Below, piece by piece: positions 2,068-12,083 of a stretch of DNA of 12,868 bases; the first letter of the stretch is position 1, and every line of letters starts with the position of its first letter. This stretch comes from Clostridiaceae bacterium. Lineage in GTDB: Bacteria; Bacillota_A; Clostridia; Acetivibrionales; Acetivibrionaceae. The translations under genes were made by a program, and so were the position numbers. Location of the stretch: the NCBI GenBank assembly GCA_012513545.1, contig JAAZCB010000141.1:1-12868 (forward strand). Direction: 5' to 3'. The notes below the pieces were generated by a model, which saw only the letters and a list, made by a program, of their open reading frames with translations, was not told the origin of the DNA and did no database searches.

Positions 2068-3468
2068 ATGATTGCAGCACTTTACTTACGTGTAAGTACT
2101 GAATCTCAAGCAGAAGATGGATTTAGTATTGCAGCTCAGTTAAGGCTATTACAAGACTATTGTCAAAGAAATAATATAGAGATATATAAAGTATATTCAG
2201 ATGAAGGGATATCCGGGCAGAAAGAAAATAGACCACAATTCCAGGCTATGTTAAGGGATGCAGAGAAGAAGCTGTTTAATATCATCTTGGTGCATAAATT
2301 CGATAGATTCGCCAGGAAGGTTGAGCTTTCCCAGAAAATAAAGAATCAACTTCGGAAAACAAATATAAATGTAATATCTGCCACTGAGCCGATTGAAGAT
2401 AGTCCAATGGGCTTTTTTGTATCCGGACTCCATGATCTTATGGCAGAATATTATATCCGTAACCTGGCCTTGGAATCTAAAAAAGGGCATATTGAAAGGG
2501 CAAAACAAGGCTATCATAATGGTTCTGTACCGTATGGATATTATACGGACCGGGAAACAGGTATACCAAAGATAAACGAAGAGCAGGCGAAAATAGTACG
2601 ATGGATATTTGAAATGTACAATAAAGAAGGGAAAGGGAGTACTAAGATTGCAGCTATATTAAATGAGCATGGAATACTTACTGCCGTCAATGGAACGTGG
2701 GCGCACTTTACAGTGTCAAGAATACTTCACAATGTCAAATACATAGGCAAAATATATTATGATGGAGAAATCTATCAAGGGAAACATGATCCTATAATCT
2801 CAGAAGAAGAATTTTATCTTGCCCAACAGAACATAAAGGACCGCACTTGGAAACGTGAATACCGGGGGGCAAATTATAATAAGTTCCTATTTCTCGGACT
2901 GCTACGCTGCGGAATATGTAAAAAAGTTATGAAGATACATTCCAACCTTAAAAGCACATCAAAGAGAACTAATAGTTCTTATTATTATGTCTGCAATAAT
3001 GCAAGTCACACTGATAATCCTAATCGATGCCAACATAGGAAATGTTATTCTACTAAATTACTTGAAGAACACTTGCTAAAAGAAATAAAACATATGGTCA
3101 AAAGTGTTAAAGCCATGAATGTAAATATAATAGAAAGGAACTCTGTGGAAGATATATTGGTTAATCAAAAGAATAAAATGGAAATAGAACTGGACAGAAT
3201 TAAAAAGGCTTATATTGCCGGGGTATTTTCTTTAGAAGAATACCAAGAAGAAAAAAATAGGATCCTAGAACAAATCAAAAATATAGAACTCTCCGAAAAG
3301 CAAAATACTGATAAAGAAAAGGAGAAAAGATTTCAGCAAAAAGCCAGGACCATATGGGAAGAGTTCGAGCAGTTGGAGACTATAGAAGAGCGAAAATTAT
3401 GCCTAAAGAAAATAATAGACGTTATATATATAACGTCTGAGGGAATAGATATTGATGTTGTGTTGTAA
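2068..3468 (+). CDS. int: Large serine recombinase (phage integrase)
   Basis: A 466-residue site-specific recombinase. The N-terminal resolvase domain (about 2-145) shows the YLRVS motif with R8 and nucleophile S10, a SGQKENRPQFQAML segment, and HKFDRFAR (D79, R80, R83) of the catalytic pocket. The recombinase domain follows (about 150-260, including PYGYY, IVRWIFEMY and GSTKIAAILNEHGI). A zinc ribbon is formed by C281, C284, C309 and C321, or C326. A coiled coil (about 335-420) interrupts or follows it, as in phage integrases of the phiC31/TP901 type. All key residues are present and the length is usual, so it should be active. It inserts and excises the phage genome between attP and attB; excision would need a directionality factor not identified here. 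It is translationally coupled to the membrane-protein gene before it. Confidence 0.95.
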   Translation: MIAALYLRVSTESQAEDGFSIAAQLRLLQDYCQRNNIEIYKVYSDEGISGQKENRPQFQAMLRDAEKKLFNIILVHKFDRFARKVELSQKIKNQLRKTNINVISATEPIEDSPMGFFVSGLHDLMAEYYIRNLALESKKGHIERAKQGYHNGSVPYGYYTDRETGIPKINEEQAKIVRWIFEMYNKEGKGSTKIAAILNEHGILTAVNGTWAHFTVSRILHNVKYIGKIYYDGEIYQGKHDPIISEEEFYLAQQNIKDRTWKREYRGANYNKFLFLGLLRCGICKKVMKIHSNLKSTSKRTNSSYYYVCNNASHTDNPNRCQHRKCYSTKLLEEHLLKEIKHMVKSVKAMNVNIIERNSVEDILVNQKNKMEIELDRIKKAYIAGVFSLEEYQEEKNRILEQIKNIELSEKQNTDKEKEKRFQQKARTIWEEFEQLETIEERKLCLKKIIDVIYITSEGIDIDVVL

Positions 3469-5821: not shown

Positions 5822-6241
5822 ATGGGAGTAACAATAAGCTCAAAAAGATACAGTTGCGATATGGGATATAGTGGATTTAACAGATTTAGGCAAGTTGTTG
5901 CTGACAAAGTAAATAATGAATTTGCAGATCATTATAAGGAGCTTGCTAGTATCGATGTAATTATGCTTGGGGGAGAAAAGAGAAAAGAGTATTTTGAAAA
6001 ATATGATGCTAAAACGATTGAGTTTGTTAATTCGAATGTTATAACTGCTGAAGTTGCTAATTTTTTATATCAGAGTGATTGTACCGGAAAGATAGATAGA
6101 AAACAAGCAAAAGAGATATATGAATTAATTAAGGATTGTGATGATAATATAATATTTGGTTATACAGGTAGAAAAGACTGTGCAAAAATGTATGACATGA
6201 AAAATATATTTTCTGATAGAACAAAGGTTGAATGGTGTTGA
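5822..6241 (+). CDS. Uncharacterised phage family protein (SSKRYSxDMGYxGF type)
   Basis: A 139-residue protein. The reading frame is open from 5777, but GGAGGAGG sits ten bases before the ATG at 5822, so that start is chosen. Conserved-looking blocks are SSKRYSCDMGYSGFNRFR near the start, FLYQSDCTGKI and IYELIKDCDDNIIFGYTG, and RKDCAKM near the end. From memory this architecture recurs in many Firmicutes phages without known function. It is the last gene of the rightward operon, ending about 60 bases before the strong terminator. Three Asp-Cys pairs (SDC, KDC, KDC) are notable. Confidence 0.75.
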   Translation: MGVTISSKRYSCDMGYSGFNRFRQVVADKVNNEFADHYKELASIDVIMLGGEKRKEYFEKYDAKTIEFVNSNVITAEVANFLYQSDCTGKIDRKQAKEIYELIKDCDDNIIFGYTGRKDCAKMYDMKNIFSDRTKVEWC

Positions 6242-6266
6242 ACATTATACATATATCTGTTATAAT
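6238..6266 (+). promoter_or_regulatory. Possible promoter ending at a nearby terminator
   Basis: TTGAAC (6238-6243) overlaps the stop codon of the preceding gene and is followed by a 17-bp spacer and a perfect TATAAT (6261-6266). A transcript would begin near 6273 and reach the terminator at 6335 after about 60 bases, with no ORF in it. AT-rich sequence yields such matches by chance, so this is weak. Confidence 0.35.
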
Positions 6267-6300
6267 ATATATAGTTTCATAGTGTTTTTACCCTGACAAG

Positions 6301-6335
6301 AAAAAGAAGGTTATACAGGTGTGACCTTCTTTTTT
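6301..6335. terminator. Strong bidirectional terminator
   Basis: AAAAAGAAGGT (6301-6311) pairs with ACCTTCTTTTT (6324-6334), and weaker pairs extend the stem to a 4-base CAGG loop. The rightward strand ends in six T residues, and the leftward strand has TTTTTCTT. It separates the rightward accessory operon from the end of the late operon, whose last stop is only five bases away. Confidence 0.9.
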
Positions 6336-6339
6336 GTTG

Positions 6340-6705
6340 CTATCTTTTTATTGCAGCTTCAATTTTATCCCTCAAGTATTCATCCCATTTATCACCCTTA
6401 ATCTGTTGTATAGCTGTAATTGCTGAGTCACCCATAGTAGAAATGACTTTTGTTCTGGCAATCATGAAAGCTTCTTCCTTTTCTTCTGCCCCAAAGGTTC
6501 CTTCTTTTTTGAGTGCATCAACATATGTTTGTGATACTGATTTAACTGCAGTTATTACAGCATCATCCATTATGTCGAAGTACTTTTTAAAGTTATCATT
6601 TGCAATTCTAGCCTTTACATAGTTTAATGCCGGTACGATAATAAAAGGTATTACTATCAATGTTACTGCTGTCTGGATTAATTCAGCTATCATAGTTTCA
6701 CTCAT
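6340..6705 (-). CDS. LLH-family phage holin
   Basis: A 121-residue protein. One membrane segment near the start (about residues 8-30, AELIQTAVTLIVIPFIIVPAL) is followed by a charged helical tail containing DDAVITAVKSVSQTYVDAL, a GTFGAEEKEEAFMIARTK segment and DEYLRDKIEAAIKR. This is the layout of the LL-H holin superfamily (about 110-130 residues), which opens the membrane late in infection to release the lysin. It overlaps the lysin stop by four bases (ATGA) and is the last gene before the bidirectional terminator. It lies at the end of a four-gene lysis cassette. Confidence 0.8.
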   Translation of the reverse strand: MSETMIAELIQTAVTLIVIPFIIVPALNYVKARIANDNFKKYFDIMDDAVITAVKSVSQTYVDALKKEGTFGAEEKEEAFMIARTKVISTMGDSAITAIQQIKGDKWDEYLRDKIEAAIKR

Positions 6706-7382
6706 ATACTATTCATCCTCTCTTTTAACATATTTATTTGACCTTTAAGGTCATTAATCATAGCCTGTTGTTGTGCCATTATTGCGAAATTCTCAGCTCT
6801 TTTTATGCTATCCTCGAAGCGTTTTTCATGGATAACAATACCGGAATTACGCAAAAATGTATAAGGTTCTTCGCCCCAATGAGGTTTTGGTGGTTCCGGT
6901 TCATAAGAAATGAACGGACATTTAAGCCATTCAATCCAAGGATAATCCCTTAAATTAGACTGAATAACACCTATTGCTGTACCTCTGGATTCTATTACTT
7001 TTCCGTTACCGATATATACCCCTATGTGTCCAGACTTCCATACACATAGTCCAGGTATTTCGGGAATAGTTTTGATCGGTCCTTTTTCTTTTGCAGCTTC
7101 ATACATCCCATTTGCTGATTTGTCATTATTGGGGTTATATACAGCTTTTTCACCGTCCCACCATATGTAACTTTTAATAAGTCCCACACAGTCAGTAACC
7201 ATTCTATTCATCCACTTACTGCGAATGGTGGCTTCTTTATCTCCTACACCCTTAGGGTATTGTCTCATTTTATCCTGCAGGAATTGTTCTGTTAACTTGT
7301 TGCCGAAGCTACCCCATACATAACCCCATTTTTCATTTAAGGCTTTTTGGGCATGTTCTACTAATCCTATATTATCTTTCAA
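6702..7382 (-). CDS. NlpC/P60 endolysin with SLH-like tail
   Basis: A 226-residue lysin. The NlpC/P60 papain-like domain (about 5-160) shows YVWGSFGN at 21-28, TDCVGLIK with catalytic C65, KSGHIGVYIGNG with H119, and VIESRG with E131 as a possible third residue. A linker rich in Pro and Glu (160-170) leads to a HWGEEPYTFLRNSGIVIHEK segment with RAENFAIMAQ, which resembles a single S-layer-homology-like cell-wall module, then a short coiled coil. It would cut peptidoglycan peptides; no signal peptide is seen, so a holin is needed. The start is TTG (7382) directly after a TAG, with AGGTGAT before it; no usable ATG precedes the active-site region. Confidence 0.85.
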   Translation of the reverse strand: MKDNIGLVEHAQKALNEKWGYVWGSFGNKLTEQFLQDKMRQYPKGVGDKEATIRSKWMNRMVTDCVGLIKSYIWWDGEKAVYNPNNDKSANGMYEAAKEKGPIKTIPEIPGLCVWKSGHIGVYIGNGKVIESRGTAIGVIQSNLRDYPWIEWLKCPFISYEPEPPKPHWGEEPYTFLRNSGIVIHEKRFEDSIKRAENFAIMAQQQAMINDLKGQINMLKERMNSI

Positions 7383-7391
7383 CTATATCAC

Positions 7392-7658
7392 CTACTTTCC
7401 TATAAGCTTATTAAAAAAGTACCCGGCAACTAAGCCGAGTACTGCAATAATAAAACCTCTTACTAATTCGTTCCATCTGTTTCCGGGGCCTGCTGCTAAT
7501 AAATCAACCTTTGCCATGAGTTGGTCTAAGGCTTTTTCAATATTCTTGAGAGTTAAACAAGTTGTGCTTGATGTCTTCTCAAGCTCATTAACCCGGGTCC
7601 ATAATTCCTTTACATCACGCTGTAAAGCTTCAACTACTTTTTCAAGCCCATCACTCAT
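7392..7658 (-). CDS. XhlA-like holin accessory protein
   Basis: An 88-residue protein. A coiled coil (residues about 1-50, VVEALQRDVKELWTRVNELEK) is followed by one C-terminal membrane helix (about 62-84, ELVRGFIIAVLGLVAGYFF). This is the layout of haemolysin XhlA-like proteins, which accompany holins and lysins in Bacillus and Clostridium phages and help lysis. GGGGGATTAATAATG provides a good start. Located immediately before the lysin, whose ribosome-binding site overlaps its stop. Confidence 0.8.
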   Translation of the reverse strand: MSDGLEKVVEALQRDVKELWTRVNELEKTSSTTCLTLKNIEKALDQLMAKVDLLAAGPGNRWNELVRGFIIAVLGLVAGYFFNKLIGK

Positions 7659-7660
7659 TA

Positions 7661-7936
7661 TTAATCCCCCTTTACTTTGGCGGTTTCGGTGGTTTCGGGG
7701 GCTTCGGTGGTTTGAATAGTATCTTTTTCACGACACTCCATATACTCATTTGTAGCACTTCCTTCCTGATAATCTGTGTAACCTAAAAAATAAAATCCTG
7801 CTATAACCGAAAGGGTTATGCAGAATAATGCGGTTATTATTACTATTGCAGTTACAATCCTTTTGTTAATCTCGTCTGCTTTGGTTATAAGTAAATCCAA
7901 CACTTTAATAACCTCTATTACTGTAGATTCATCCAT
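7661..7936 (-). CDS. Single-pass membrane protein of the lysis cassette
   Basis: A 91-residue protein with one long hydrophobic segment (about 26-54, RIVTAIVIITALFCITLSVIAGFYFLGY) after a short helical head (IEVIKVLDLLITKADEINK). The tail is Thr/Glu-rich (TTEAPETTETAK). In DNA, that tail is encoded by a short GGTTTCGG-type micro-repeat (about 7678-7713). It is the first gene of the lysis cassette, just two bases upstream of the XhlA-like gene. The family is not recognised; a holin partner or antiholin is plausible. The ribosome-binding site is weak (GGTGATTAGTGT). Confidence 0.7.
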   Translation of the reverse strand: MDESTVIEVIKVLDLLITKADEINKRIVTAIVIITALFCITLSVIAGFYFLGYTDYQEGSATNEYMECREKDTIQTTEAPETTETAKVKGD

Positions 7937-7939
7937 ACA

Positions 7940-8011
7940 CTAATCACCAGCCTTTCTTAAAATGTCGTTAAAGGCTGTTATATCTATGTAACCATCACCA
8001 TTAACACATCC
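7940..8011 (-). pseudogene. Dockerin/EF-hand-like C-terminal remnant
   Basis: In the minus frame ending at TAG (7942-7940), the codons read GCVNGDGYIDITAFNDIL followed by RKAGD. This is very close to a dockerin-type calcium loop (DVNGDGxID...LR), though the first coordinating Asp is Cys. The frame is open upstream to about 8077, but no ATG, GTG or TTG start with a ribosome-binding site exists, and the upstream part is the RNA terminator. It therefore looks like the residue of a longer gene rather than an expressed protein. Twenty-three residues are few, so chance similarity is possible. Confidence 0.4.
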
Positions 8012-8020
8012 TTTCTTGTA

Positions 8021-8056
8021 GAAAATAAAAAGAGAACTACATTTCTGTAGCTCTCT
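8021..8056 (-). terminator. Intrinsic terminator upstream of the lysis genes
   Basis: On the minus strand AGAGAGCTACA (8056 to 8046) pairs with TGTAGTTCTCT (8041 to 8031), an 11-bp stem with one G-U pair closed by a GAAA tetraloop, followed by TTTTATTTTC. It lies 85 bases before the first lysis ATG, so polymerase must pass it, or start again, to express lysis genes from upstream. Confidence 0.9.
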
Positions 8057-8170
8057 CTGTGAGGATGTATTAACGTATCAACATCCCCATTGCCCAATTG
8101 GGGTCTGCCCTGATTAATGCCGGGAAACACTCGGGCAGAGTGCTTGTCGTGTTGCAATCACTATCCCGGC
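8021..8170 (-). ncRNA. Novel structured RNA between virion and lysis genes
   Basis: A consensus-like promoter (8177-8206) would start transcription at about 8170, exactly at the first base of a 7-bp stem (GCCGGGA with TCCCGGC, 8164-8170 and 8119-8125). That stem encloses a small GTG/CAC hairpin and an 8-bp hairpin (8125-8132 with 8138-8145) with loop TGCCC. The loop can pair with GGGCAG made from 8105-8110, giving a pseudoknot. A CCCCAATTGGGCAATGGGG hairpin and a GGATGT/ACATCC hairpin follow, then the terminator. The resulting RNA is about 150 bases with no convincing ORF. I do not recognise an Rfam class. It could be a free RNA, or a leader that controls read-through into lysis genes. Confidence 0.65.
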
Positions 8171-8176
8171 CTTGTT

Positions 8177-8206
8177 ATAATATAAAATTTTGGATTCAAT
8201 TGTCAA
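8177..8206 (-). promoter_or_regulatory. Promoter of the structured RNA / lysis region
   Basis: On the minus strand a perfect TTGACA (8206 to 8201) overlaps the last codons of the large virion gene; after an 18-bp spacer TATTAT (8182 to 8177) follows. Transcription would begin about seven bases later, near 8170. Confidence 0.7.
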
Positions 8207-11200
8207 GTTGTTTTTTGTTCTTCAACAGTTCCTTTTTAGCCTTGTCGTAGTTATCCCTGACAATTTTACTTAACATTTTACTTTTTTCATCATCCGATGC
8301 CTTTTTATACTTCGGTGAATTAATCAATAGCAGTATCTTATTATAGTTTTCTTCGCCCATGGTACGCTGAAATTCGGTTACTTCTTTAGGGGTTAATTGT
8401 ATTGTTTTACCACTAGAAGTAAGTTTATATGGTGCAACTTTCGGTAGTATATCCGTTTCATTTGTCGATTTATAAAGCCTTGCTATTTCTTTTGTTACTT
8501 CATCATCTGACTTGCCTTTGCTATAACCCGGACTAAAGAATTGTTCCAATGGGCTATTTTGCTTTTGCTCTTTCCCAAATACATCAAGTTTAGGCTCAAG
8601 AAGTTTCGAAGCAAAAGGAGTTTTGGCAAGGATTTCTTTACCGAATTTCTTAACCGGATTCGGGTCATATGTGCTTCTTCTTACCGGGTCAATGCTCCTT
8701 GTTGCCTGACCGAACAGTGTAGGGAATGCCTGTTCAAAATATGCTACAGGTAAACCCATTATTTTTTCTGTTGGACTGCCGTAACTTCCACCAAACAAAT
8801 CTTTTATGTTTTGCAGCATAGACATATTAAATATGGTATCGCCCCCTGCTGCTACTGCTTCGGTTATCCCTTCAATATCAACATTATCCTTTTTAGCAAC
8901 ACTTTCATACATAACCATTCCCATTGCAAAAGGTACAGCGAATGGTTGCGCCCAATCAAATGTATAGCTACCTATAGGTGTAATAATAGAATTTGGTTGC
9001 TCGCCCATCTGGTTTAATATTGCTTCGGCATTTTTACTTGTACTCTTTTCACTTCTCGCCCAACCTAAAGAAGCAAGCAAGAAGCCTAACCCTGCAATAG
9101 ATGTCCCGGCCATGCCTTTTGATAAAGTTTCAATCACTTCTGCCGGGGCTTTATTTTTGCTATAAATCAATTTCAATAATCCAACAGGTGAATAATCAAT
9201 TGAACTGCTTACTATGTTGGCCGGGGTTTTACTGAATGGAATTGCTGCTTCTGTAAGTTTGCCTACAACTCCACCTTTTGCTTTAGCCCTGTTGATAAAA
9301 GAAGCAACCATATTGGTTTGTTTGAATGTTGCTTCCATTGCTCTACGTTTAGCATATTGATGGGCTTGTTCTGTTACCTTCCCTAATTTGTTGGCATTCA
9401 TATACTGGCCTAATGAATCCTTATAGGCATTCTGAAAAAATATAGCATCTTCCCAATTCAATGTGTTTTTTGAAAATTGATTTAATGCTTCAAGCCATTT
9501 CGTTTTGAATATGGGCTTTTCATAATTCAACAATCTTAAGTTTTCTATATCCCATCGGCCAATATTAAGTAAATCTTTTTGGTTATCTTTCCATGCCTTT
9601 TCAACTATAGGAATAAGAGATTTATTTCTTTTCCAGAATACAGACTTAGTTCTTCCCCCAGGCTTAATTATCTTTGCTTTTTCTGCTGCCTTTTCTACCA
9701 TTGCCCCAATAGCATCCGAATACTTACGCAATCCTAACATCAAAACGTTACCGCCGATGTTTCGAGCATGGGTTTTCGGATTAAACAACATGGCCATCCT
9801 TCTCCAAGCATCAAACTTTTCCATATTCGTAACCGGAATTCTTTTTGAGATACGGTTAAAAATATCTTCGAGAACTTTATCTCTTTCGAATTCACTTTTG
9901 TTTACCATGTCATTAAGTATTTTGATTTCATCATCTGTCAAATCAATGTTCTTCCACTTGTCGCCGAAACGCTTTGCTCCATCCCTGTTTAATTTGTCAA
10001 GGTTATTCTGTATAAAGATTGCCGTTGCTTCTGGGTCTGCCTGTCTCAATATGTTTGCTGCTTGAGAAAACTGTCCAGCCTTGGTTAGTTTTTCGGCCAT
10101 GTCTGATATAATTCTTCTCCCTAAGTCAATGTTACCTTCTTTAATTGCCTGATTAGATAACATCTTTGCCAATGGAACATCTTCTGGCCTAAAGTTATTC
10201 AGGTTCCTATCCCATTCACTTAAAGCCGTATTAAATCCTTTTGCATATATAGCTTCTGCTTTTTGCAACGTTTCTTTGTTACTAAGCCTTTCATATGACA
10301 ATGGCTTTTCTTCAAAGGACTTTCTTAAATCGTCATTCATATATGAATCTGTTCTAATGTTTTTGGAAAATCCTCTTTCTAGCCGTTGGAGTTTTTCTTT
10401 TGCTTCAGCAAAAAGTTGAAGGTCAATTTTAATTCCTTTTTTCTGTTGCTCTTCCAATGATTTAACATAGCTTTTTAATTCTATTACATCATCTGGTATA
10501 CTTGATTTTTTAGATTGTAAGTCTGCAATTTGCTTATCAATGTCCTGTATGAATTTAGAATTGTTAGTTTTGTTCTTGGTCCCTGTCATTAAATCATTTT
10601 GGAATTGCAACATTTTCTTTGAGCGTGTTAATTTTTCTATCTCCGTATCTATTGGAGTAGGTTTCTTTGGAACATCAGCTTTTGGTTCAAGTTTAGCATT
10701 TTGAATTTCAGGGGTCTTTCCTCTTACTTCCCGGAAAGGAAATTCCCTTGTGCCTTTTGCTCTGTCGTATATAGATGGTTCCGGTTTGTATGGTTCAGGC
10801 TGTCTTACAAAATCATATTTCTGCCCGGTTCCTGTATACTCACCTTGTTTAAGTAAATCAATTTTAGCCTGTTGTTGCTTTAGTTTATCACTTAGTTTAT
10901 TTACTGTTGGAGGTAGTTGTTTCTTTTTGAGTTCGCCTTTTGCTGTTTGAAAAGGTGCTTCAACTCTCTGCGCATTATTATAATCAGGTAAATTAACAAC
11001 CCTTCTTGTACGGTCAATCATTTCTTGACCTACATTAATCTTCTGTGGTATTCCTTCCGGCAATGCTAAAGGCTGTTTAGGTGGGGTGCTCAACTCATTA
11101 ATATTTCTTACTACACTCCCCCCTGATGTACCGTAAAAATCAGCTTTAGGTTTCAATGGTGCCGGTATAGGTTTAGCAGGTGGCATCTGTATTGATGTAC

Positions 11201-12083
11201 TCTCAGGCAACATTAATATATCTCTTGCTGCCGGAAGCTCCTTTACAACTTGTGCTTTGGTTTCGACCGGTAAATCTTTCAAGGCTTTCATATCGATGTT
11301 GTCAAGTGCTTCACCTATAAGATGTTTTTTAATTGCTTTACCTGCAGGTCCCAATGCTCCAAGTAATACGTCTATTCCCGCTCCTATCCCTGCACCTTCT
11401 AACATAGCTTTGGGGACTTTACGGACATCTCCTGTCTCTACCAATGTTTGAATGGCATCCAAAGGGGCCCCAACAATAGCACCTTCTACAACATTCTTCA
11501 TTATTGGACTTGCTATATTTTTTGTTGCTACTGCTGTAACTGGTTTTAAGGCTTTTGCTGATACCGTAGAAGGTACAACATATCCAGCTAAGTTACCTAT
11601 TGTTCTAGCTCCTTGAGTATTTGCTTGACCTTCTTGGTATGCCTTATTAGTCAAAAACCCTGTAACTGAAGGTTTACCTGTAATCCTTTCTTTTAGTTTG
11701 TCTCCTGCATTTGCTGCAAGTTCCATTGCTTTATCTTGAAGCCCCAATGTTGCACTATTAGTAAATCCTAACAATGCCTGATTGACAGGCTGGTTAAAAG
11801 TCTTTTCATAATCTTCTAATAATTCATTGGTAAACTTAGTGCGTGAGTCCAAAGGTTTACTCTCTAATGTTGTGTTAGGGTATGGTATATTTTTAACGTT
11901 TCCCAGTGCAGGACTTTTAAATATTTCAGGTATAGGGACAGGTTTTGACTTTGGTTCTACCTTCAACACAATTCCTTTACCCGCTTCTTTGATAGGTTGA
12001 TTTAATTCAGCTTTTCTTTTTTGAATATCTTTTGATAATAAACTATTAGCTTTGCGTTTCTTTATATCTTCTGAAAGGCTCAT
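8196..12083 (-). CDS. Large multidomain virion/ejection-type protein (LPD38-like)
   Basis: A 1295-residue protein, the largest in the window. Its N-terminus has a short internal repeat (EDIKKRKA at 5-12, KDIQKRKA at 18-25). Residues about 101-255 are Ala/Gly-rich amphipathic helices. A Pro/Lys-rich linker (about 290-480) and coiled coils (about 480-600) follow. The C-terminal half holds FNPKTHARNIGGN (near 771), PFSKTPANIV (near 949), a hydrophobic segment (about 990-1006) and FAVPFAMGMVMY (near 1053). These motifs recall large polyvalent proteins with an LPD38 domain, found in phages as internal virion or DNA-ejection proteins. AAGGTGAT precedes the ATG. No catalytic site was recognised. It may form or line an ejection channel; that is inference. 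Confidence 0.6.
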   Translation of the reverse strand: MSLSEDIKKRKANSLLSKDIQKRKAELNQPIKEAGKGIVLKVEPKSKPVPIPEIFKSPALGNVKNIPYPNTTLESKPLDSRTKFTNELLEDYEKTFNQPVNQALLGFTNSATLGLQDKAMELAANAGDKLKERITGKPSVTGFLTNKAYQEGQANTQGARTIGNLAGYVVPSTVSAKALKPVTAVATKNIASPIMKNVVEGAIVGAPLDAIQTLVETGDVRKVPKAMLEGAGIGAGIDVLLGALGPAGKAIKKHLIGEALDNIDMKALKDLPVETKAQVVKELPAARDILMLPESTSIQMPPAKPIPAPLKPKADFYGTSGGSVVRNINELSTPPKQPLALPEGIPQKINVGQEMIDRTRRVVNLPDYNNAQRVEAPFQTAKGELKKKQLPPTVNKLSDKLKQQQAKIDLLKQGEYTGTGQKYDFVRQPEPYKPEPSIYDRAKGTREFPFREVRGKTPEIQNAKLEPKADVPKKPTPIDTEIEKLTRSKKMLQFQNDLMTGTKNKTNNSKFIQDIDKQIADLQSKKSSIPDDVIELKSYVKSLEEQQKKGIKIDLQLFAEAKEKLQRLERGFSKNIRTDSYMNDDLRKSFEEKPLSYERLSNKETLQKAEAIYAKGFNTALSEWDRNLNNFRPEDVPLAKMLSNQAIKEGNIDLGRRIISDMAEKLTKAGQFSQAANILRQADPEATAIFIQNNLDKLNRDGAKRFGDKWKNIDLTDDEIKILNDMVNKSEFERDKVLEDIFNRISKRIPVTNMEKFDAWRRMAMLFNPKTHARNIGGNVLMLGLRKYSDAIGAMVEKAAEKAKIIKPGGRTKSVFWKRNKSLIPIVEKAWKDNQKDLLNIGRWDIENLRLLNYEKPIFKTKWLEALNQFSKNTLNWEDAIFFQNAYKDSLGQYMNANKLGKVTEQAHQYAKRRAMEATFKQTNMVASFINRAKAKGGVVGKLTEAAIPFSKTPANIVSSSIDYSPVGLLKLIYSKNKAPAEVIETLSKGMAGTSIAGLGFLLASLGWARSEKSTSKNAEAILNQMGEQPNSIITPIGSYTFDWAQPFAVPFAMGMVMYESVAKKDNVDIEGITEAVAAGGDTIFNMSMLQNIKDLFGGSYGSPTEKIMGLPVAYFEQAFPTLFGQATRSIDPVRRSTYDPNPVKKFGKEILAKTPFASKLLEPKLDVFGKEQKQNSPLEQFFSPGYSKGKSDDEVTKEIARLYKSTNETDILPKVAPYKLTSSGKTIQLTPKEVTEFQRTMGEENYNKILLLINSPKYKKASDDEKSKMLSKIVRDNYDKAKKELLKNKKQLDN

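Follow-up and report, generated by a model that had tools for sequence, protein, structure and literature searches.

Among described RNAs, those that provide the closest comparison here are the int-alpA RNAs (Rfam RF02996), which reportedly stem from the Weinberg 2017 survey and which, going by their name, lie between an integrase gene and an alpA-type gene. The Rfam model is 71 positions long and is typed as an sRNA. It ends at the first of what will be described here as two downstream partners of a single hairpin loop, with the second partner, the copy at the Shine-Dalgarno site, lying beyond it. In a literature search that covered mostly papers outside of subscription, int-alpA turned up only as a table entry, and RF02996 nowhere, within the portions of text available; nor is int-alpA mentioned in the available part of PMC8040213. 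Neither a two-partner switch nor an endonuclease link is described for int-alpA in the literature searched, few subscription papers being among it.

A further point of comparison is the homing endonuclease genes of phages. Those of the T4 type (I-TevI, segB, mobE) are silenced by hairpins at their ribosome sites, and control of the remaining free-standing T4 homing endonucleases is described as not obvious (PMC2988022, available part).

The RNA considered here is found on the minus strand of what we call the window, i.e., the whole stretch of DNA analysed, 12,868 nucleotides from a Clostridiaceae bacterium. It sits not between integrase and alpA-type genes but between a gene for a 1295-aa protein and a lysis cassette. 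Its parts are as follows.

8177..8206, minus strand: promoter of sigma-70 type, TTGACA-18-TATTAT (or instead -16-TATATT), with 11 of 12 consensus matches for each spacing.
8119..8170, minus strand: stem P1, GCCGGGA (8170-8164) with TCCCGGC (8125-8119), closing the core domain; from the fold and from double changes in the family.
8147..8163, minus strand: core UAGUGAUUGCAACACGA with the P1a hairpin GUG/CAC (8161-8159/8151-8149); an exact 17-mer in viral stretches.
8126..8144, minus strand: hairpin P2, AGCACTC/GAGTGTT (8144-8138/8132-8126), with loop UGCCC at 8137-8133; from the fold and from double changes in the family.
8105..8110, minus strand: GGGCAG, the P2 loop's first partner (pseudoknot PK1); from loop complements in the family.
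8085..8103, minus strand: hairpin P3, CCCCA/UGGGG, whose loop holds GGGCA copy 2 (8095-8091); from stem scores and copy counts in the family.
8070..8090, minus strand: residual ORF, ATG GGG ATG TTG ATA CGT TAA, where other members begin a gene.
8060..8089, minus strand: hairpin P4, UGGGGAUGU/ACAUCCUCA, containing the second ATG; from the fold.
8029..8058, minus strand: intrinsic terminator hairpin with GAAA loop and a U-tract to about 8022; from the fold and a terminator scan.

The first-pass annotation had described, from the sequence, a minus-strand promoter, a 7-bp stem around two hairpins, a loop able to pair downstream, and a terminator, and all of these are recovered by folding and motif scanning. 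Its overall picture likewise holds: the phage RNA is self-contained and pseudoknotted, measures about 145-150 nt, and is furnished with both a promoter and a terminator, transcription being predicted to start at about 8170-8171, near the base of P1. The terminator has the GAAA loop and U-tract as claimed, although with 13 pairs, G-U included, rather than 11. Downstream of P1 the GGGCA motif is present twice (8110-8106 and 8095-8091). The residual ORF is of 6 codons from the ATG at 8090 or, if the second ATG at 8084 is used, of 4, with its stop ending at 8070, and P3 and P4 are predicted by folding to be mutually exclusive.

Folding of 8175-8010 gives -55.6 kcal/mol, where shuffles average -37.8 (z of -4.24, with 0 of 200 shuffles as good). 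Taken by part, z is -5.84 for the terminator and -2.46 for the 63-nt P1 domain versus -1.06 for the 82-nt core and -0.81 for the 57-nt downstream part, and energy thus backs the terminator and the P1 domain but not the part with the pseudoknot. The predicted pseudoknotted core is proved instead by comparison of homologues. A terminator scan of 6200-8700 found 2 sites, with 1.7 expected by chance.

The cmscan search of Rfam that the first-pass annotation had proposed as a check did not by itself place the RNA. No family matches the window at gathering cut-offs, and at E <= 10 there are, around the RNA, but two chance-level matches, both to other families. RF02996 has no match to the window RNA even at that threshold, i.e., the RNA scores below the 35.8 bits required for membership. 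A covariance model made from the window sequence alone, by contrast with these null results, matches one of 391 genomes of one class, at a locus here called L071. The E of that match is 0.002 per genome, such that about one chance match is expected across 391 genomes. L071 is accepted not for its E-value, then, but because it has the same 17-nt core, because both strands of its P1 differ and yet still pair, and because it scores 34.3 bits with RF02996 (gathering cut-off 35.8).

The exact 17-nt core pattern is found in 107 stretches of viral contigs. A pattern which leaves the P1a stem free and has two fewer fixed letters, and so is looser by a factor of about sixteen, yielded 21 stretches, its listing being taken as new loci only; none of these matches the family model, and chance therefore explains few of the 107. 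Model R2 matches 103 of the 106 17-mer loci scanned, most of them in its training set, with L086, L117, and L146 not matching and L171 left out of the scan. Model R3, from which the window was held out, gives the window RNA 61.5 bits (E of 7e-12 over 80 kb), its rows having been aligned with R2, whose 88 rows included the window once. RF02996 itself was run on 38 records chosen from the 108 that carry the core and matches 19 of these at E <= 1, with 13 above cut-off; for 14 control genomes these numbers are 3 and 0. As half of the tested records are missed by RF02996, and the window as well, the phage family is broader than the Rfam model. By homology, then, the predicted window RNA belongs with the int-alpA RNAs of Rfam, and these are found ahead of other genes. 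It is rare in the one-class sample, the 17-mer being present in 1 of those 391 genomes. Across 398 genomes of one phylum R2 gave a single match (G700, 31.7 bits, E of 8e-4), which is without the core and was judged to be a plain hairpin.

Homology with int-alpA takes the place of the precedents that had been suggested, namely riboswitch-like attenuators, the HK022 put RNA, and the phi29 packaging RNA. A packaging RNA of the phi29 kind, or instead a put-type antitermination RNA, is scarcely credible: size, pseudoknot, and phage context are all that speak for it, cmscan of the region at E 10 returned no such match (from a library whose put and pRNA content is unconfirmed), and the family precedes many unrelated genes.

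Covariation was assessed in an alignment of 90 copies, fitted to the model and not including the window, the sequences of which are related. Standard pairs occupy 97.8% of its 1436 pair cells versus 68.9% when shuffled, both partners have changed in 13 of 16 pairs as against a mean of 10.7 in shuffles, and the covariation score is 0.774, where shuffling gives 0.209 (sd 0.010) and sliding the structure 0.07-0.15. The covariation among homologues upon which the first-pass annotation had made its case depend is, that is, strong. Double changes are seen in all 8 modelled P1 pairs and in 4 of 5 modelled P2 pairs. P1a is near-constant in the rows selected by the 17-mer, an invariance which is by construction as the search fixed those letters. 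Copies lacking the 17-mer, i.e., second copies in L077, L111, and L125 (the last weak, 30 bits) along with L180 and L181 of E. coli, have by eye other short hairpins at P1a, such as GGG/CCC or CGC/GCG, with the UAG and CGA around P1a nevertheless kept, in E. coli too.

The second copies just mentioned (L077:7685-7794, L111:8089-8203, L125:8416-8532) share a contig with a first and each precedes an ORF, as do two further same-contig second copies which likewise lack the exact 17-mer (L139:2468-2587, L165:628-735). Several copies of this predicted RNA are thus present per phage. As to counting, P1 is weak in 8 of 109 motif matches, which were dropped (L086, L104, L108, L111, L112, L117, L146, L167). 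Merging identical cores left 88 RNAs aligned and 89 parsed, the window being in both sets, with L075, which is cut off, parsed but not aligned. A promoter score of at least 9/12 within 50 nt upstream of P1 is found in 15 of 75 members, the window included, versus 2 of 72 control stretches from the adjacent zone, and in 11 of these 15 the -10 ends 3-8 nt before P1; most members thus are without a clear promoter at that place.

In much of the family the P2 loop is complementary not to one downstream copy of a motif but to two. A 5-mer complement of the loop is present within 62 nt after P1 in 85 of 89 RNAs (shuffled loops: mean 33.5, maximum 45), and two such complements in 58 of 89 (mean 17.7, maximum 26). 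Among loops without GCCTT, two copies are seen in 28 of 49, versus 3.7 with a maximum of 11. With 4-mers, two copies are found in 82 of 89 (mean 44.2, maximum 56), and with 6-mers in only 6 of 89 (mean 1.8, maximum 6), i.e., each loop pairing is short. For these comparisons loops were shuffled among members, with 500 shuffles, and relatedness of the sequences inflates the shuffle results.

Copy 2 tends to occupy P3, a small hairpin ahead of the start codon. P3 stem scores of at least 5 are found in 61 of 89 RNAs versus 10.8 expected from letter shuffles, and the best P3 loops carry a purine-rich motif from a loose list in 77 of 89, a figure without a control. In the E. coli copies (L180:2487-2598, L181:2490-2600), which are located between a tyrosine integrase gene and the next gene, copy 2 by eye is in a hairpin, followed by an ATG. 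The window RNA shares this arrangement, with its P2 loop complementing both GGGCAG at 8110-8105 and GGGCA at 8095-8091. The latter has, in the P3 loop, the position of the Shine-Dalgarno sequence of other members, and as a Shine-Dalgarno sequence GGGCA is poor.

Two copies of the loop's partner, the second of them at the Shine-Dalgarno site, suggest a translational switch. The P2 loop of family RNAs would serve as an internal anti-Shine-Dalgarno. Were it to pair with the upstream copy 1, a decoy, then the ribosome site would be free, and were it to pair instead with the Shine-Dalgarno copy that P3 displays (copy 2), then that site would be blocked. Such alternative pairing could allow the leader to set the timing or the amount of protein made. 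In another reading of the same sequences, PK1 could be permanent and copy 2 a mere resemblance. A related proposal is that the UAG-hairpin-CGAnAAG core is a sensor which binds something, ligand or protein, with PK1 structural and the second copies simply purine-rich ribosome sites. The retention of UAG and CGA in copies not selected for the 17-mer is what one would expect of a sensor; copy 2, however, is also found behind loops other than plain anti-Shine-Dalgarno ones (UCGCU loops have AGCGA twice), and a core that senses could well be part of the switch, such that we consider a sensor in place of a switch to be improbable.

What might be switched is indicated by the genes that follow. Family RNAs usually end directly at a gene's start codon, and in most loci the core is followed, no more than about 125 nt on, by an ORF of at least 40 aa. 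Pfam searches of 90 distinct downstream ORFs gave HNH 21 times, HNH_5 20, NUMOD4 12, HNH_3 11, and GIY-YIG 8, these counts overlapping. That set is what remained after duplicates were merged and after the window, L084, L086, L103, L104, L114, L117, L146, and L167 were omitted, the reasons being contig ends, a weak RNA, or the lack of an ORF of 40 aa at that place, although a long ORF is present in L146. Upon clustering, one group of 44 includes HNH, NUMOD4, and GIY-YIG proteins. A second, of 19 proteins, has the signature DLTGQRFG...CDCG; three of its members, scanned singly, have no Pfam match, and the group is at most a candidate for being endonucleases. Also found are homing-endonuclease repeat proteins (3) and TnpB (1), the TnpB-type gene (L090:8090-9378) being directly behind the RNA, and the leader therefore extends beyond HNH or GIY-YIG genes. 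Many of the followers, the group of 19 among them, are not recognised endonucleases. Ordinary phage genes occur too, such as antirepressor and methylase by Pfam as well as terminase and portal by eye, and for what follows the two E. coli copies Pfam makes no assignment above cut-off. The apparent endonuclease link of the family is strong, covering about half of the ORFs by Pfam, but is not exclusive.

Tentatively, and as a possibility rather than an expectation, int-alpA RNAs may be a portable translational switch placed on unrelated mobile genes of phages. They would have been carried across distant bacterial hosts by many unrelated homing endonucleases and other mobile genes, and whatever reads the conserved core would tune the choice between decoy and ribosome site. 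The copy in the window then would be one that has been freed from its gene and fixed as a phage RNA standing alone, and which may act in trans on sister leaders.

What of the window's own genes? The 1295-aa gene (window 8196-12083) has its stop at 8196, and its relatives are hypothetical or are called 'Large polyvalent protein'. Nearer relatives of this phage have proteins (P0002 and P0003) at 71%. One scan with the 1295-aa protein by itself came up empty. Its only relative in the phage collection is MW202801, titled Podoviridae sp., at 27% over 19% of the query. The lysis cassette consists of a 91-aa ORF, an 88-aa ORF (PHROG 'hemolysin') which we take to be XhlA-like, an NlpC/P60-like protein (at E of 0.0002, which is below Pfam's cut-off), and a holin. 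Elsewhere on the contig there are virion-type genes, and the serine-type integrase of a temperate phage is at window 2068-3468.

Loci with relatives of these genes were collected, 70 in all, 66 by way of the 1295-aa protein and 4 by way of the endolysin. Many are only remotely related (identity of about 27-30%), and some stop short of the junction at which the RNA would be found. Across these 70, junction present or not, the family model has no match at E <= 0.1, the single-sequence model nothing convincing (best E of 0.38), and blastn-short and nhmmer no homologue (best nhmmer E of 0.21). Blastn of the RNA region against phages gave one match, with E of 0.7 and 17% covered, and against plasmids none. 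In L005, at 56% identity the top among the matches listed, only a plain hairpin is seen behind the gene by eye. Model matches at window 7368-7447 (18.4 and 20.2 bits), where the 88-aa gene ends and the endolysin starts, were judged to be chance. The idea that the RNA is conserved with the lysis cassette was dropped, as neither model matches convincingly in the 70 loci, not all of which reach the junction. The cassette's position next to the putative window RNA looks incidental.

Lysis gating could still be proposed for the window alone. Under that proposal the terminator at 8029 would be the normal stop, with a signal, or translation of the mini-ORF, letting transcription continue into the lysis genes. 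The order of promoter, leader, mini-ORF, and terminator suits this, P3 and P4 are mutually exclusive with the second ATG inside P4, and c-di-GMP-I riboswitches at the phiCD119-type lysis module of C. difficile offer a precedent (PMC3649979, available part). An attenuator, however, would have an antiterminator helix competing with its terminator, and in the window RNA none stands out above chance: the longest helix between leader and terminator is 7, versus a mean of 7.7 and maximum of 16 for shuffled leaders. Together with the failure to find the RNA in the 70 loci, some of them short of the junction, this makes lysis gating quite unlikely. Of the two roles which the first-pass annotation had left open, the stand-alone RNA thus is favored and the leader gating lysis genes set aside.

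Our preferred reading, to which we give a probability of about 0.6, is that the window RNA belongs to the int-alpA class as a divergent member standing alone, an intact switch-type leader which likely was stranded by loss of a mobile gene. The leader is complete to the start codon, behind which there follow only the 4-6-codon ORF and the terminator. No gene begins behind P3, that is. The product would be short, about 145 nt of RNA, with the terminator also halting transcription before the lysis genes. Gene loss is inferred only, as no relative with both RNA and gene at that junction was seen. The promoter, stems, and pseudoknot show no decay, which argues for retained function rather than a dead remnant.

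A second gene-less copy, L103, is followed by a hairpin, one not counted by the terminator scan. The genes upstream of the L103 and L071 RNAs look alike by eye, and the two may be one site without and with an endonuclease-like gene. Two observations concern the window junction itself. In L063 the gene homologous to that of the 1295-aa protein is immediately followed, at the RNA's junction, by an IscB-like ORF (by eye; L063:7925-9274), hinting that the window junction accepts insertions. In the window, a start-less frame past the terminator (about 8010-7940, minus strand), ending ...KKGCVNGDGYIDITAFNDILRKAGD*, by eye resembles a single dockerin-like EF-hand repeat and perhaps is the tail of a lost gene; its NGDG motif was found in none of 14 related loci searched.

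Retained function leads to a more specific proposal, that the window RNA is an sRNA which acts in trans, its P2 or P3 loop pairing with other genes at their Shine-Dalgarno regions, or else with sister leaders, meaning those on competing mobile elements. The window leader's parts are all intact, along with a near-consensus promoter and strong terminator, Rfam types int-alpA as 'Gene; sRNA', L103 likewise has no gene behind it before its hairpin, and Gifsy-1 IsrK, a prophage RNA with short and read-through forms, is a precedent (PMC4825925, available part). The loop UGCCC, however, is short, and in most relatives an ORF follows the core at a distance of no more than about 125 nt, and so we view trans action as rather unlikely.

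The wider family, with two competing partners ahead of mobile genes, is a more interesting result than is the window copy. Int-alpA, listed until now as a small RNA, gains from it a concrete mechanism proposal along with a set of client genes. A single conserved leader ahead of several unrelated types of endonuclease would be, if true, a shared answer to the keeping of such genes quiet, and the switch idea is directly testable through the two copies, which covary. The window copy, for its part, suggests that int-alpA-type leaders can persist as stand-alone RNAs.

In terms of known systems, the window RNA and its family have in common with int-alpA (RF02996) a P1 around two hairpins, a UAG...CGA core, and a P2 loop which pairs downstream, whereas the window copy differs in being undetected by the RF02996 model and in having a terminator rather than a gene behind it. 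Gifsy-1 IsrK is likewise a prophage RNA with a terminator, occurring in short and read-through forms, but IsrK activates in trans the translation of its own read-through form (PMC4825925, available part), and no sequence relation between the two RNAs was seen. The c-di-GMP-I riboswitch of phiCD119-type modules is similarly a regulatory RNA beside the lysis module of a clostridial prophage (PMC3649979, available part), whereas the window RNA matches no riboswitch family and no antiterminator helix above chance was found in it. With the hairpins of T4-type phages, finally, the family shares the quieting of phage homing endonuclease genes by RNA structure at the Shine-Dalgarno site, as the switch would predict. 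The T4-type hairpins, however, sequester that site depending on which promoter is used (PMC2988022, available part), whereas in the window family there is a conserved pseudoknotted core with what appear to be two competing partners.
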